Below the pieces are notes generated by a model that was given only the letters and a program-made list of their open reading frames with translations, made no database searches and was not told the DNA's origin. A stretch of 64,000 bases of DNA from Arthrobacter sp. ISL-65 (GTDB lineage: Bacteria > Actinomycetota > Actinomycetes > Actinomycetales > Micrococcaceae): assembly GCF_018613795.1 (NCBI RefSeq), contig NZ_JAGGPN010000020.1, positions 333,289-397,288 of the forward strand, read 5' to 3'. Below, in pieces: positions 47,829-53,375 of the stretch (the stretch's first letter is position 1; the number at the start of each line of letters is the position of its first letter). The translations under genes were made by a program, and so were the position numbers.

Positions 47829-48769
47829 ATGAAACCCTTGCAGAAACAGCCCGGCCCGCCGGCACCACACTGAGCGGACTGCGGTTTTCCAAGGGCCACG
47901 GAACAGGCAACGACTTCGTCCTGGTCGCTGATCCCGAGGGCGTGCACGCCATCTCCGCGGAGCAGGTCGCCCAGCTGTGCGACCGTCACCGCGGCATCGG
48001 CGGTGACGGCCTCATCCGCGCCGTGCCGTCCCGGCTTCTTGACGAGGGCCGGCAGATTCTTGCCGAAAACCCCGGCGCCGAGTGGTTCATGGATTACCGC
48101 AACGGTGACGGTTCCCTGTCGGAGATGTGCGGCAACGGCGTGCGCGTGTTCGTCCACTTCCTCCTGGCCGAAGGCCTGGCTGAGCTGCCTGCCGGCGGCT
48201 CGCTGACCATCGGCACCCGCGGCGGCGTCAAGACCATTGTCCGCACAGGTGACGGCTACGCCGTCGACATGGGCCCTTGGGAGTTCATTTTCCCGGACGA
48301 GGCAGCGGCCCGCGCCATGGATTCGCTGGTCAGCGCCGACGGACTCGAGGTGCCGCGGCCGGCGCTGTCCGTCAGCATGGGCAACCCGCACACGGTGGTC
48401 GCCCTGGCCGAGCTGTCCGAACTCCGGGACACCCGGCTCTTCACCGCCCCGCACGTCGACCCGGCTCCCGGCAATGGCACCAACGTCGAGTTCGTTGTCC
48501 CGGCCGAGCCGCTGGTGCACGACGGCGTGGGCACCGTGACCATGCGGGTCCACGAACGTGGTGTCGGCGAAACGCAGTCCTGCGGCACCGGAGCATGTGC
48601 AGCAGCGGTGGCCATCCGTCACTGGGCCGGGCAGGGCGCCCCGGACACCTGGCAGGTGAAGGTGCCGGGCGGCGTCGTGGGCGTGAAGTTCTTCACCGTT
48701 GCCGGCGGCCGCGAGCACGTGGAGCTCAGCGGCCCGGCAACGATCGTTGCTACCGGGACGCTTTCCTGA
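47825..48769 (+). CDS. dapF: Diaminopimelate epimerase
   Basis: 314 residues. DapF interconverts LL- and meso-diaminopimelate for lysine and peptidoglycan. The two catalytic cysteines are Cys102 (EMCGNGVRVF) and Cys253 (QSCGTGACAAA). KGHGTGNDFVL near the N-terminus and SMGNPHTVV are typical. Its end overlaps a convergent methyltransferase gene by 20 bases. Confidence 0.95.
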   Translation: MNETLAETARPAGTTLSGLRFSKGHGTGNDFVLVADPEGVHAISAEQVAQLCDRHRGIGGDGLIRAVPSRLLDEGRQILAENPGAEWFMDYRNGDGSLSEMCGNGVRVFVHFLLAEGLAELPAGGSLTIGTRGGVKTIVRTGDGYAVDMGPWEFIFPDEAAARAMDSLVSADGLEVPRPALSVSMGNPHTVVALAELSELRDTRLFTAPHVDPAPGNGTNVEFVVPAEPLVHDGVGTVTMRVHERGVGETQSCGTGACAAAVAIRHWAGQGAPDTWQVKVPGGVVGVKFFTVAGGREHVELSGPATIVATGTLS

Positions 48770-49364
48770 CCCGCAGGATCCTGAAGGATTTGGACGTGTT
48801 TTCCCGCGTCACCGTGAAGGAGCCATCCAGAACCTCCGCCAGCCAGCGCTGAAGCGTATCCGAGCCCAGGTTCTTCTGCACCACCAACCAGGCCGAACCG
48901 CCCGGCGCCAGCCTCGGCAGCCAGAGCAGCAGGAGCGAGTGCAGTTCATCCTTGCCGATCCGGATCGGCGGATTGGACCAGATGGTATCGAAACGGATTT
49001 CCGGGTCCACATCCTCTGGCGTGCTGGCAGCGACGTTGCTCAGCCCAAGCAGTTCAGCGTTCCCGTTGGTGAGCGCGATGCACCGTTCATTGACGTCCAC
49101 GGCGTAGACCTGGGCGTGCGGTGCCCGCAGCGCCATGGTCAGGGCGATGGGTCCCCAGCCGCAGCCGATGTCGAGCAGGTTCCCCTGCGGGGAAGGAGCG
49201 GGAACCTCGGCCAGCAGGATGGCCGTCCCCTTGTCGATCCCGTCCGGACTGAAGATGCCGGACGAGGTCTGCAGCTTCCGCGTTTCACCGGCCAGTTCCA
49301 CTGTGAGGGGCTTGCGGGTAAACGGCCCCGCAGGTGAGGCGCTGAAATAGTGGGCAGACTCCAT
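48750..49364 (-). CDS. RsmC-like SAM-dependent methyltransferase
   Basis: 204 residues from the ATG at 49364. A single MTS-type domain: SAM motif LLDIGCGWGPIAL (~residues 63-75), VDVNERCIALT and the catalytic SNPPIRIG (N-P-P-x motif for exocyclic amine methylation). It resembles the C-terminal half of 16S rRNA guanine-N2 methyltransferase RsmC; the exact target is unproven. Its 3' end overlaps dapF by 20 bases; the two transcripts could interfere. Confidence 0.88.
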   Translation of the reverse strand: MESAHYFSASPAGPFTRKPLTVELAGETRKLQTSSGIFSPDGIDKGTAILLAEVPAPSPQGNLLDIGCGWGPIALTMALRAPHAQVYAVDVNERCIALTNGNAELLGLSNVAASTPEDVDPEIRFDTIWSNPPIRIGKDELHSLLLLWLPRLAPGGSAWLVVQKNLGSDTLQRWLAEVLDGSFTVTRENTSKSFRILRVRKASR

Positions 49365-49435
49365 AACTGGCCAGATTAGTGGGCTGCCCGCCCGATGGGA
49401 AACCGGCCGATCGGAAAGCCGGCCGGCCGTTCTGG

Positions 49436-49441
49436 TATCCT
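49436..49441 (+). promoter_or_regulatory. -10 element of the hflX leader
   Basis: TATCCT ends 7 bases before an ATG at 49449. It is the only good -10-like element I see close to the hflX side. No good -35 is visible. Confidence 0.45.
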
Positions 49442-49448
49442 TGAAGGC

Positions 49449-49469
49449 ATGTTCCTGATTTTTGAGTAG
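49449..49469 (+). CDS. Possible leaderless micro-ORF MFLIFE upstream of hflX
   Basis: ATG-TTC-CTG-ATT-TTT-GAG-TAG: six codons, starting 7 bases after TATCCT, so the ATG would be at or next to the transcript start. After it come CTCTTTTT (49478-49484) and a small hairpin GCGGC/GCCGC (49489-49503). The 380-base gap (49365-49744) otherwise holds GC-rich inverted repeats but no gene. A regulatory leader peptide is an inference. Confidence 0.35.
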   Translation: MFLIFE

Positions 49470-49744
49470 CCGGTACCTCTTTTTGCCCGCGGCCTTTAGC
49501 CGCCGGCGCCGGCCCATGGCTCCCCTCCAATGCGACGCAGGTATTGCCCTTTGCAGGCACACATCTTCCGCAGGAGCGCAGCCCGAACAGCACTCAATCA
49601 GACCGCTTCCCGCCGGCCATGCCTGACGTCTGCCGGCATTTCAGGAGACCCTCCATGACCCCTCGCAGTCAGCCCAGCGCGAATACCTCCGCCAAGGGCG
49701 GCAATCAGCACTATTCTGAAGATGCAGAACCTTCAAAGGAGACC

Positions 49745-51322
49745 ATGACCAGTCAGCAAAATCCCGGATCCAAGCCGGCGGCCCAGGACATGAGTCCTGA
49801 GGAAATCCAGGCTGTTATCGACCGGATCCTCGCCAAGGACGTCCCGGCCAAGAACGCCGCACCTGCCAACGGCAGCGGCGCCGACAGCCAAGGCGTTTTG
49901 GGCAAGGCGCAGGCCATCTCGCATCTCGACGAAGAGCACAGCACGTTCGACGGCGACCAGCAGGACCTCGAGGAACGCCGCGCACTGCGGCGCACCGCCG
50001 GGCTGTCCACCGAACTCGAGGACGTCACCGAAGTCGAATACAGGCAGCTGCGCCTGGAACGCGTTGTGCTCGCCGGCCTCTGGAGCGAAGGCACGCTGGG
50101 TGATGCCGAGAATTCGCTGCGTGAACTCGCCGCGCTGGCGGAAACGGCGGGCTCGGAAGTCCTCGACGGACTCGTCCAGCGGCGCGCCAAGCCGGACCCC
50201 GGCACCTTCCTTGGTTCCGGCAAGGCCTTGGAACTCAAGGACGTGGTGATGTCCACCGGCGCCGATACCGTCGTGGTGGACGCCGAACTCGCTCCGTCCC
50301 AGCGGCGCGGCCTTGAAGACATCGTCAAGGTGAAGGTCATTGACCGCACGGCACTGATCCTCGACATCTTCGCCCAGCACGCCAAGAGCCGTGAAGGCAA
50401 GGCTCAAGTGGAGTTGGCGCAGCTCGAATACCTCCTTCCGCGCCTCCGCGGCTGGGGTGAATCCATGTCCCGCCAGGCCGGTGGCCAGGTGGGCGGTGCA
50501 GGCGCCGGCATGGGCTCGCGTGGTCCCGGTGAAACAAAGATCGAACTGGACCGGCGAAGGATCCGCACCCGGATGGCCAAGCTGCGGCGCGAGATCGCCG
50601 CGATGAAGCCGGCACGGGAGACCAAACGTGCCAACCGCCGTCGTAATGAAGTCCCGTCAGTGGCCATTGCCGGATACACCAACGCCGGGAAGTCCTCGCT
50701 GCTCAACCGCCTTACCGACGCCGGCGTCCTGGTGGAAAACGCCCTGTTCGCCACCCTGGACCCCACCGTCCGCAAGGCCGAGACCTCAGACGGCGTTGGC
50801 TACACGCTGGCCGACACCGTGGGGTTCGTCCGGTCCCTGCCCACCCAGCTGGTGGAGGCCTTCCGCTCCACCCTTGAGGAAGTGGCGGATGCAGACCTGA
50901 TCCTGCACGTGGTGGACGTGTCGCACCCGGACCCGGAGGGCCAGATCGCCGCCGTGCGCTCGGTGTTCGCCGAGGTGGACGCCCGCAAGGTGCCCGAGAT
51001 CATCGTCCTGAACAAGGCGGACGCCGCCGACCCGTTTGTGGTGGAGCGGCTGAAGCAGCGCGAACCGAGGCACGTGGTGGTTTCGGCACGCACGGGGGAG
51101 GGCATTGCCGAGCTGCTCAAGGCCATCAGCGAGGCCATCCCGCGGCCAAATGTCAAGATGGAGCTCCTCGTGCCGTACCACCGCGGCGATCTCATCAGTA
51201 AACTGCACGACTCTGACGCGGAGATCCTCAGCCTGGATCACGAAGAGGGCGGCACCCGCGCCGTTGTCATGGTCCGGGAAGGCCTCGCGGCTGAACTGGA
51301 ATCCTTCATCAGCAATGACTGA
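49745..51322 (+). CDS. hflX: Ribosome-associated GTPase HflX
   Basis: 525 residues from the ATG at 49745 with AAAGGAG upstream; an in-frame ATG at 49655 also has an AGGAGA site and would add 30 residues. HflX splits stalled or antibiotic-bound 70S ribosomes. The N-terminal domain includes DPGTFLGSGKALEL and VDAELAPSQRRGLED, then a coiled-coil linker with SRGPGETKIELDRRRI. GTPase motifs: GYTNAGKSS (310-318), DTVGFVRSLP and NKAD. In mycobacteria hflX belongs to the WhiB7 antibiotic-stress regulon. Confidence 0.94.
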   Translation: MTSQQNPGSKPAAQDMSPEEIQAVIDRILAKDVPAKNAAPANGSGADSQGVLGKAQAISHLDEEHSTFDGDQQDLEERRALRRTAGLSTELEDVTEVEYRQLRLERVVLAGLWSEGTLGDAENSLRELAALAETAGSEVLDGLVQRRAKPDPGTFLGSGKALELKDVVMSTGADTVVVDAELAPSQRRGLEDIVKVKVIDRTALILDIFAQHAKSREGKAQVELAQLEYLLPRLRGWGESMSRQAGGQVGGAGAGMGSRGPGETKIELDRRRIRTRMAKLRREIAAMKPARETKRANRRRNEVPSVAIAGYTNAGKSSLLNRLTDAGVLVENALFATLDPTVRKAETSDGVGYTLADTVGFVRSLPTQLVEAFRSTLEEVADADLILHVVDVSHPDPEGQIAAVRSVFAEVDARKVPEIIVLNKADAADPFVVERLKQREPRHVVVSARTGEGIAELLKAISEAIPRPNVKMELLVPYHRGDLISKLHDSDAEILSLDHEEGGTRAVVMVREGLAAELESFISND

Positions 51323-53375
51323 CGGGGTGGCAGACGCCGCAGCCAGCGCCACGGCCGGCGAGCAGCATGTACTGGAGCTGCTCGACCGTGCCGTGGCGGG
51401 CATGGGCGGACAAAGCCGCAGCGGCCAGCACGAGATGGCCCGGCAGGTGGCGCGCGCCATCGAAACCGGCGACCACCTGCTGGTGCAGGCCGGCACGGGA
51501 ACCGGCAAGTCGTTGGCCTACCTTGTCCCGCTCATCGCCCACTCGCTTGAGAGCAATAAACCGACCCTCGTCTCCACCGCCACCCTCGCGCTGCAGACCC
51601 AAATCGTGGGCCGGGACCTTCCGCGGCTGCTGGAAAGCCTCAAACCCGCACTCGACCGGCCTGTGAAGATTGCGCTGGTCAAGGGCCGCGCGAACTATGT
51701 CTGCAGGCACAAGCTCGAGGGCGGCTTTCCCTCCGAGGAGCCTTCCGAAGGCCAGCTTTTCTCACTGGGCGAGGACACCAGCGTCCCGCACTTCGCCGCG
51801 GCCATGGGCGGCCCCTCCTCGCAGCTGGGCAAGGAGGTGGTCAGGCTCCGGGAATGGGCGGAGCAGACCACCACGGGCGACCGTGACGAGCTCCTTCCCG
51901 GCGTCACGGACCGGGCCTGGCGGCAGGTGTCCGTCACGTCCATGGAATGCCTCGGCGCGCAGAAATGCCCCCTCGCCGAAGAGTGCTTCAGCGAACTTGC
52001 CCGCCATAACGCCACGGAAGCCGACGTCGTGGTGACCAACCACGCCATGCTGGCCGTCAGCGCCTTCGAGGGCCTGGCCGTGCTGCCGGAGTACGACGTC
52101 GTGGTGGTGGACGAGGCCCACGAACTCCAGGACCGGGTGACCGGCGCGGTTTCGGGGCAGCTGTCGGTGGCCATGGTCCACGCCGCAGCGTCCGGCGCCC
52201 GCAAGCACACCGGGATCACTGTTGACGCGCTCAACACAGCGGCCGCCAACCTCGAGGTGGCTCTTGCCGGCGTTCCCAGCGGCTTGCTGCCCAACGGCCT
52301 GAACGACGAGCAGCTGGATTGTGTGGACCAGCTTCGTGAGGCCTGCCGGGCGGCGCTGTCGGATTCCAAGGGGGACAGCAATACAACGGCCGACGGCGGG
52401 CGGCAGCTCGCGCGCTCCCGCCTGCTGGTGATTTTGGAGCTTTGTGAGCGGCTCATCGCCGCCCGGGAAAACCGCGAGGTGGTCTGGTTCTCGCGGAACA
52501 GCACGTTTGATCCCCAGCAAGGATACTCGGCGCCGGACGAGACTGCCCCGGCTCTGGTCAACATCGCCCCGCTGAGCGTGGCAGGCAGGCTCCGGGAAGG
52601 CCTGTTCGCCGGCCATACCGTGGTGCTGACGTCGGCAACACTGGCCATCGGCTCTGCCTTCGAACCCGCCGCAGGCGGGCTGGGCCTGGTCGGGGACGGC
52701 GCACCGAGCTGGACCGGCGTCGACGTGGGTTCGCCCTTCGACTACCCCCGGCAGGGCATCCTGTACGTGGCGGGGCACCTGCCGAAACCGGGCCGCGGCA
52801 CTTCGCCTGAGGCGCTGGACGAACTCGAGTCCCTCATCCGCGCCTCCGGTGGGGGAGCGCTCTGCCTGTTCTCCTCACGGCGGGCCGCCGAGGAAGCGGC
52901 AGATGCCCTGCGCACGCGGCTGGATGTCAGCATTCTTTGCCAGGGTGAGTCCACCATGACGGCACTGGTGAAGCAGTTTGCTGACGAGCCTGATACCTGC
53001 CTGTTCGGCACGATGTCACTGTGGCAGGGCGTCGACGTGCCGGGCGGGTCGTGCCGCCTGGTGGTCATTGACAGGATCCCCTTCCCGCGGCCGGACGACC
53101 CCCTGATGACCGCGCGGTCCCGGGCCGTTGCCCAGGCCGGCGGCAACGGTTTCATGTCCGTATCCGCCACGCACGCGGCCATCAGGCTGGCCCAGGGGGC
53201 AGGACGGCTCATCCGGTCCACGAACGACAAGGGCGTGGTGGCGGTGCTGGATTCCCGGCTGTCCACGGAACGTTACGGCGGGTTCCTGCGGGCCGCCCTG
53301 CCGCCGTTCTGGCCGACGACCGACAGGAAGACCGCCGTCGCAGCACTCGAACGGCTCGCCGGCGCACAGGCGTAA
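51315..53375 (+). CDS. DinG/XPD-like ATP-dependent DNA helicase
   Basis: 686 residues, ATG start overlapping the hflX end by 8 bases. Superfamily-2 5'-3' iron-sulfur helicase: Walker A GTGTGKS (60-66), DEAH box at 266-269, and four Cys for the 4Fe-4S cluster (Cys130, 212, 218, 224). Late motifs include TSATLAIGSAF, FSSRRAAEEAAD and the terminal QGAGRLIRSTNDKG. Likely role in unwinding R-loops or blocked forks; the exact family name (DinG or YoaA) is open. No LexA box is seen before it. Confidence 0.9.
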   Translation: MTDGVADAAASATAGEQHVLELLDRAVAGMGGQSRSGQHEMARQVARAIETGDHLLVQAGTGTGKSLAYLVPLIAHSLESNKPTLVSTATLALQTQIVGRDLPRLLESLKPALDRPVKIALVKGRANYVCRHKLEGGFPSEEPSEGQLFSLGEDTSVPHFAAAMGGPSSQLGKEVVRLREWAEQTTTGDRDELLPGVTDRAWRQVSVTSMECLGAQKCPLAEECFSELARHNATEADVVVTNHAMLAVSAFEGLAVLPEYDVVVVDEAHELQDRVTGAVSGQLSVAMVHAAASGARKHTGITVDALNTAAANLEVALAGVPSGLLPNGLNDEQLDCVDQLREACRAALSDSKGDSNTTADGGRQLARSRLLVILELCERLIAARENREVVWFSRNSTFDPQQGYSAPDETAPALVNIAPLSVAGRLREGLFAGHTVVLTSATLAIGSAFEPAAGGLGLVGDGAPSWTGVDVGSPFDYPRQGILYVAGHLPKPGRGTSPEALDELESLIRASGGGALCLFSSRRAAEEAADALRTRLDVSILCQGESTMTALVKQFADEPDTCLFGTMSLWQGVDVPGGSCRLVVIDRIPFPRPDDPLMTARSRAVAQAGGNGFMSVSATHAAIRLAQGAGRLIRSTNDKGVVAVLDSRLSTERYGGFLRAALPPFWPTTDRKTAVAALERLAGAQA

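Follow-up and report, generated by a model that had tools for sequence, protein, structure and literature searches.

The closest described systems are summarised here as they appear in excerpts of the cited papers. Ribosomes translating MsrDL (MYLIFM), the leader peptide of Streptococcus msrD, are stalled at its stop codon by cladinose macrolides (erythromycin); induction is abolished by alanine at L3 or I4, strongly lowered by alanine at every residue except Y2 and lowered by UAG in place of UAA, and leucine or isoleucine at position 3 is also critical in the erythromycin-resistance pentapeptides (PMC10314930). R/K-x-R/K is the macrolide-arrest motif for MefAL, ErmDL and HflXr (PMC6310831, PMC10314930). 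rli80-hflXr of Listeria is an antibiotic-responsive attenuator in which expression is switched by stalled ribosomes (PMC6310831), and the uORFC-6-1 motif of Bacillales, a candidate upstream open reading frame (uORF) with covarying RNA structure before hflX, was proposed as a stalling sensor (PMC8632094). Leaderless polycysteine short open reading frames (ORFs) are attenuators in mycobacteria (Canestrari 2020, cited in PMC13236596), several ribosome-targeting antibiotics are sensed by a uORF ahead of topAI in E. coli (PMC12121999), and in Mycobacterium abscessus and Streptomyces coelicolor WhiB7/WblC controls hflX, which gives protection from macrolides (PMC10727445, PMC7157823). Here, a six-codon micro-ORF of leaderless type (MFLIFE) before hflX was analysed in a stretch of 64,000 nucleotides (nt) from Arthrobacter sp. 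ISL-65 (contig NZ_JAGGPN010000020.1, positions 333,289 to 397,288), the whole of which is called the window. Its leaderless geometry is conserved, its relatives code mostly for short hydrophobic peptides, and it covaries with an anti-ORF element farther down the leader. We think it rather probable that this micro-ORF is a leaderless leader peptide and the sensor of a ribosome-operated hflX attenuator.

A first-pass annotation of the window had described TATCCT, 7 nt, the six codons and a stop, then CTCTTTTT and a small hairpin, about 280 bases before hflX. All of these were found again (49436-49469, 49477-49484 and 49489-49503, respectively). The proximal hflX ATG (49745) lies 275 nt past the micro-ORF stop and a second ATG in the same frame, farther 5' (49655), lies 185 nt past it, both led by a Shine-Dalgarno (SD) sequence. 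The features of the region are as follows.

48750..49364, minus strand: divergent class I methyltransferase gene, RsmC/RlmG-like (from the ORF; NCBIfam matches all under the curated cut-offs); its start at 49364 is the upstream boundary of the hflX leader region
49431..49441, plus strand: P1, extended -10 promoter element TCTGG-TATCCT (TG-N-TATCCT; TATCCT at 49436-49441), 7 nt 5' of the micro-ORF ATG
49449..49469, plus strand: leaderless-type micro-ORF MFLIFE, ATG TTC CTG ATT TTT GAG TAG (from sequence, conservation and shuffle test)
49477-49484, plus strand: CTCTTTTT, 3' of the micro-ORF, not conserved in the genus alignment
49489..49503, plus strand: small hairpin GCGGC-CTTTA-GCCGC past the micro-ORF stop, not universal
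49532..49541, plus strand: GCGACGCAGG, leader element strongly conserved within the genus (alignment)
49592..49601, plus strand: anti-ORF element ACTCAATCAG, with complementarity to the micro-ORF stretches CTGAT and TGAGT, weaker in the window than in most relatives
49643..49657, plus strand: AGGAG and the farther 5' ATG (49655), in frame, for an HflX with an N-terminal extension (from sequence; frame open in the genus)
49668..49686, plus strand: conserved GTCAGCCCAGCGCGAATAC within the HflX extension, 5' of P2 (alignment)
49712..49717, plus strand: P2, second promoter-like -10 (TATTCT) near hflX; GCACTATTCTG conserved, putative promoter
49735..49747, plus strand: AAAGGAG Shine-Dalgarno sequence and the proximal hflX ATG (49745) (sequence, alignment)
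49745..51322, plus strand: hflX (TIGR03156, 437.6 bits against a cut-off of 216.75)

Conservation in related species had been set beforehand as a test, and a leaderless-type micro-ORF was found before hflX in 24 of the 24 sampled genomes of the window's genus (19 by pattern, five read) and in 15 of the 31 sampled genera of the family. The 21-base MFLIFE pattern (at most one mismatch) matched 19 of 295 family genomes, once per genome and always within the genus (19/24; 18 exactly and one with one mismatch), at 259-426 nt 5' of the hflX match; none of the 271 other family genomes was matched, and a reversed control pattern had no match in the 295. The remaining five genus genomes carry MFLNSK, MFIILV, MILISK and MFLNFK (twice) at the same spacing. 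GTG-start candidates (L026, L076, L108, L139, L202 and others) were left out of the genus tally, and several genus leaders are near-identical (e.g. L009, L098 and L100).

For the family, 120 regions were read (the window, a first set of 60 and a second set of 59, chosen by genus, in which 59 of 60 were taken as G156 lay too near a contig end; genus g23 was not sampled), together with 80 further hflX-relative regions, which share some assemblies with the genome-search regions (e.g. L030 and L161). Micro-ORFs of leaderless geometry were present in 65 of the 120 (41/61 of the first set with the window and 24/59 of the second), and outside the genus they code mostly for hydrophobic peptides or for ones of 12-15 codons, some with R-x-R. 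The peptides include MRLFK, MFLFK, MFLFT, MLIFL, MFLFI, MLSFL, MNFV, MTFL, MTYL, MTLIIL, MTYLFFV, MTYMFFL, MFLLFA, MWIFLR, MWIYLR, MWITYL and MRLYRI, with MTFIFV in Glutamicibacter, MFLMYL in Micrococcus lylae and MWIIYL in Nesterenkonia; less hydrophobic ones are MKNK, MANK, MWNK and MFTS. Longer leaders contain RIRF in both sampled genomes of genus g27 (MILTQRVYTRIRFVG and MILTQRVLIRIRFVG) and RPR in seven of the ten genomes of genus g12, where MWIHLTYSRPRG and MWIRLTQHARPRSAA occur. The micro-ORF scan found none in 16 sampled genera, and those inspected have a short hflX leader with its own promoter-like site; the geometry was likewise absent from 41 regions at a greater distance, almost all from other families (L053, from Yaniella, belongs to the family).

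The start geometry varies less than the peptide. Invariant positions in the 35 genus regions are the C, T and G of the extended -10, the T, A and final T of its hexamer, the C that precedes the ATG and the ATG itself (CTG-N-TA-NNN-T in 35/35), and the distance from the -10 to the ATG is 7 nt in all 35, with no room for an SD sequence; it is 6-8 nt elsewhere, in scans that permitted 5-9 and 5-8 nt. The pattern TCTGNTANNNTN6CATGTTC had one match in each of 17 of 25 genus genomes and none in the other eight, the position of the 17 matches being checked for part of them only. The first-pass annotation had suggested that ribosomes may load directly on the micro-ORF; the leaderless geometry is conserved, and a transcript start at the ATG and translation are inferred. 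In one region of genus g17 (L144) the P1-like sequence is kept (TGATAGGCT, 7 nt) and the ATG position reads ATC, which resembles a decayed micro-ORF.

Of 61 regions upstream of hflX in the family (the window's and the first set of 60), 39 hold the arrangement TANNNT, 6 or 7 nt, ATG and a stop after 3 to 7 codons, compared with a mean of 0.47 and a maximum of 3 per 61 regions in 100 dinucleotide shuffles and with 0/61 on the reverse strand. Among the 44 distinct peptides (MVRRSSAEAGLAVK, a second candidate in L035, was left out), 121 of the 169 residues at positions 2-5 are hydrophobic (F, I, L, M, V, W or Y), i.e. 72% against 21% expected from base composition, and position 3 is leucine or isoleucine in 29. 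The nine MFLIFE-like haplotypes differ by six synonymous and three non-synonymous changes, the expected synonymous share being 23-30% (P 0.006-0.026); P values are optimistic because related species share ancestry. Since pairing with the anti-ORF element explains part of the synonymous excess, the coding argument draws on the bias toward hydrophobic residues and on the unvarying design of start and stop.

In 34 of the 35 genus regions an element 77-160 nt past the stop can pair with part of codons 3-7 in the micro-ORF of the same leader by complementarity, e.g. ACTCGAA for TTCGAGT, ACTCA for TGAGT and ACTTGG for CCAAGT. Five core pairs are formed in 165 of 170 cells over these 34 sequences (L088, with no aligned element, was left out), and after removal of duplicates, which left 26 composites, 96.2% of cells were paired, compared with 17-42% when the element was slid. 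Double-changed cells numbered 13 against 4.6 and the covariation score was 0.365 against 0.226, neither being reached in any of 500 shuffles; the ORFs in their own combinations with elements outscored 5000 of 5000 swaps, and the element was the best window of its own leader in 30 of 34. Where codon 6 is AAG or AGG, ACTT replaces ACTC in five of five sequences, and three GAG sequences (L099, L101 and L102) likewise have ACTT, which gives a G-U pair. The element was first noticed by eye and then tested, and is therefore favoured in the slid controls; its ACTC column already stood in an earlier consensus alignment. Outside the genus (genus members and ORFs longer than 27 nt left out), a complementary run to the leader's own micro-ORF occurs in 11 of 40 leaders at p<=0.05, where 2 are expected. 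The earlier proposal of a ribosome-stalling leader for hflX is partly supported by this covarying RNA element and by the likeness to MsrDL given below.

MFLIFE and MYLIFM have six codons each and are identical at M1, L3, I4 and F5 (4/6), with an aromatic residue 2 in both, and both lead a gene for a ribosome-acting resistance factor; such peptide likenesses, including those to R/K-x-R/K, were judged by inspection, without a statistic. The MsrDL system has an ABC-F gene and an intrinsic terminator next to the leader, whereas here the gene is hflX, the ORF is of leaderless type, no intrinsic terminator was found and a competing pairing links the ORF to a distant anti-ORF element. MFLIFE is a hexapeptide with L3-I4 after an aromatic residue; MFLNFK, MFLNSK and others are not. 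Like rli80-hflXr, the locus has a short ORF before an hflX gene, and alternative RNA structures switched by antibiotic-stalled ribosomes, as in rli80, are proposed here, but rli80 has a 14-residue ORF with RLR, an intrinsic terminator and a second, resistance copy of hflX, compared with a 6-codon leaderless-type ORF and the sole hflX found here. The +x+ (RLR) arrest motif is absent from MFLIFE, and the RIRF and RPR leaders carry R/K-x-R/K. The uORFC-6-1 motif likewise puts a candidate uORF with covarying RNA structure before hflX, but it belongs to another phylum and has an RLR peptide, leaderless translation being unmentioned in the excerpt; no Rfam family matched the region studied here. The mycobacterial polycysteine ORFs have in common a leaderless micro-ORF in actinobacteria, but there cysteine codons answer to cysteine, whereas here hydrophobic codons precede a ribosome-rescue gene. 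The topAI uORF, before another gene in another phylum, is a short ORF that, as proposed for the micro-ORF here, is a general sensor of ribosome-targeting drugs, and Rho dependence is named often in the excerpt. Under WhiB7/WblC, hflX is an actinobacterial resistance factor inducible by antibiotics, but there an activator works in trans, whereas the sensor proposed here would lie on the hflX message. The arrangement combines known hflX leaders, leaderless attenuators and actinobacterial hflX control in a new way, and it lacks part of what defines the MsrDL and rli80 types. In the literature, MFLIFE or an hflX leader matched one paper, on Caulobacter SpdR, through the words 'upstream of hflX' (PMC4830024); among the matches listed for wider searches there was no description of a leaderless hflX micro-ORF, nothing on Micrococcaceae leaders and no start-site map for these genera.

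In the proposed mechanism, the P1 transcript would begin at the A of the ATG and the micro-ORF would be translated without an SD sequence. A ribosome stalled on it, presumably by a macrolide-type drug, would prevent its RNA from pairing with the anti-ORF element, which lies about 120 nt farther 3'; this element, left free, could fold with the segment that follows, transcription through the C-rich leader would continue into hflX, and the HflX product would rescue stalled ribosomes. When no ribosome stalls, the ORF:anti-ORF pairing would form and the transcript would most likely end early, probably through Rho, which was guessed for this OFF state because no intrinsic terminator was found and the leader is C-rich and G-poor. 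Past the element the composition is C 0.418 and G 0.244, with C at least 1.5 x G in 25 of 34 leaders, compared with C 0.321 and G 0.315 before hflX in 37 loci without a micro-ORF. In folding predictions with the ORF free, ORF:element pairing was obtained in 23 of 34 leaders (mean 0.58 against 0.17 with a shuffled element), and with the ORF covered, element:downstream pairing in 18 of 34 (mean 0.42 against 0.26 with a shuffled downstream segment). The sign of control could be reversed: if the element:downstream pairing is what terminates the transcript, hflX would stay low under frequent translation and would rise when initiation is lost.

Several results weigh against the attenuator proposed here. 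Both alternative states were predicted in only 11 of the 34 leaders, the window not among them; its ORF:element pairing depended on the stretch folded (peak 0.84-0.93 in one folding, average 0.26 in another), and no element:downstream fold was predicted for it (0.01, under the shuffled 0.24). With its own element the window's ORF reaches a lower score than with the elements of relatives (8.8 against 10.1), and the same holds for L092 and L103. The numbers of pairs and of pair types with a double change were not above those in shuffles, and the duplex energy of the micro-ORF with its leader was weak against shuffled leaders (mean z -0.4; 8 of 86 loci at p<=0.05), so that the argument is carried by the position-specific pairing tests. 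The M6 and UAA stop favourable in MsrDL are replaced by E6 and by UAG in the window and 27 of the 35 genus regions, several genus variants have N4 (MFLNFK) in place of the I4 of MsrDL, and some leaders are not MsrDL-like (MKNK, MANK, MWNK and MFTS). An intrinsic terminator scan of 49300-49800 gave no terminator-like site, and P2 may be the source of much hflX expression. Translational attenuation by SD masking was also considered and was not clearly supported, as no clear change in SD accessibility was predicted (of 30 upstream SDs, 4 went up and 5 down; of 35 proximal SDs, 13 went up and 4 down).

It is conceivable, though unlikely, that the leader senses initiation or ribosome state, i.e. 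how often ribosomes load on the leaderless AUG and not a drug-bound nascent peptide, so that stalling would be unneeded. Leaderless AUGs are bound by undissociated 70S ribosomes, the particle that HflX splits, so that the 70S pool would set the level of hflX. AUGs at the 5' end or close to it are bound by 70S particles (PMC9031893), the geometry is steadier than the peptide (7 nt throughout the genus and 6-8 nt elsewhere, with peptides from MKNK to MWIRLTQHARPRSAA), and in six of the 11 significant leaders outside the genus (L034, L039, L137, L140, L166 and L200) the AUG itself lies within the complementary run. In the window's genus, however, the pairing covers codons 3-7 and not the AUG, and the strong hydrophobic bias, L/I at position 3 and the likeness to MsrDL would be left unexplained. 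An RNA-only element, in which the 5' end is kept for pairing with the anti-ORF element and the short frame is incidental, is distinctly improbable: the third base of codon 5 does covary with the element, which partly explains the silent-looking changes (six synonymous, three not), but the 44 frames, found by start and stop alone, have the hydrophobic coding bias given above. That the micro-ORF is a resistance minigene, whose short hydrophobic peptide expels the macrolide from its own ribosome (bottle-brush peptides) with hflX as a further output, is very improbable; MRLFK, MFLFK, MLIFL and MFLIFE fit in length and in the position 3 that is critical in such peptides (PMC10314930), but the link to hflX and the anti-ORF element indicate control in cis, and a single leaderless copy would be an unlikely dose. 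A chance short ORF beside a promoter is barely credible, for although six-codon ORFs are common in any sequence, conservation, the shuffle test, the peptide bias and the covariation contradict it.

An extension of the attenuator model is offered as a speculation of low probability, namely a self-tuning circuit in which family-wide, rapidly diversifying leaderless micro-ORFs would report on nascent chains stalled by drugs and also on the free 70S pool, the latter because leaderless AUGs are read by the undissociated 70S, the particle split by HflX. HflX would thus lower its own signal, and the peptide would evolve between MsrDL-like and RxR-like drug sensors while the start geometry and the anti-ORF pairing stay.

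The sequences of post-stop hairpins vary, many relatives having a different hairpin nearer the stop and some none; with mean folding z values of -1.14 (first 40 nt), -0.33 (nt 60-120) and -0.62 (nt 120-180) over 62 loci, the evidence for them as folded elements is suggestive only. In two g27 regions (L145 and L146) the hairpins past the RIRF ORF look mutually exclusive by eye, like a classical attenuator (in L145, GGCGC:GCGCC against GTGCGCCG:CGGCGCAC). GCGAYGCAGG...CCTTCCGC, at 49532-49541 and in relatives, may form a small hairpin (AGGY/RCCT) with variable ends in many relatives, as judged by eye; no such pattern was found elsewhere in the window's own genome, and the copy in the window itself departs from the pattern. 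The leader DNA has a second short match within its own genome (28 nt, 93%). No Rfam family was matched at E<=1 in 48000-52000, a search for tRNA and tmRNA found none, and a promoter scan of 49300-49800, which requires a -35 element, gave none.

hflX has a single match in the window's genome at E<=1e-120, and at the same threshold one match per genome in 294 of 295 family genomes; its closest named relatives are from Arthrobacter and Pseudarthrobacter. It seems to have two starts and two promoters, the putative N-terminal extension, whose frame stays open over 25 or more codons 5' of the proximal start in all 35 genus regions, holding the P2 -10 TATTCT in its code. In L012 and L015 the GCACTATTCTG nucleotides around P2 are kept though read in a different frame, as if selection acted on the DNA and not on the peptide. 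CCCAGCGCGAA, 5' of P2 (49668-49686), has by eye an inverted copy (TTCGCGCTGGG or near it) in L019-L022 and L046, relatives without a micro-ORF, at a similar distance from the hflX promoter, and may be a regulator site. Two WhiB-family proteins (L206 and L207) are encoded in the window's genome, neither with an obvious AT-hook of the kind that we take to mark WhiB7. A record titled Vibrio cholerae strain 35D (L021) has an Arthrobacter-like hflX region (79% identity) and is presumably a mislabelled or contaminated assembly; Curtobacterium sp. S6 (L028) may be misnamed too.

With the 44 distinct natural peptides a set of variants is at hand from which to learn what short nascent chains cause drug-bound ribosomes to stall, and, if the leader is a drug sensor, its leaderless start would let stalling be tested directly on ribosomes that load as 70S. 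It would then be, as far as is known to us, the first drug-sensing leader peptide both leaderless and placed before an apparently ordinary single hflX, and almost the same hexapeptide (MYLIFM and MFLIFE) would have arisen in two unrelated phyla. For Arthrobacter relatives, inducible tolerance to macrolides or lincosamides via hflX would be predicted.
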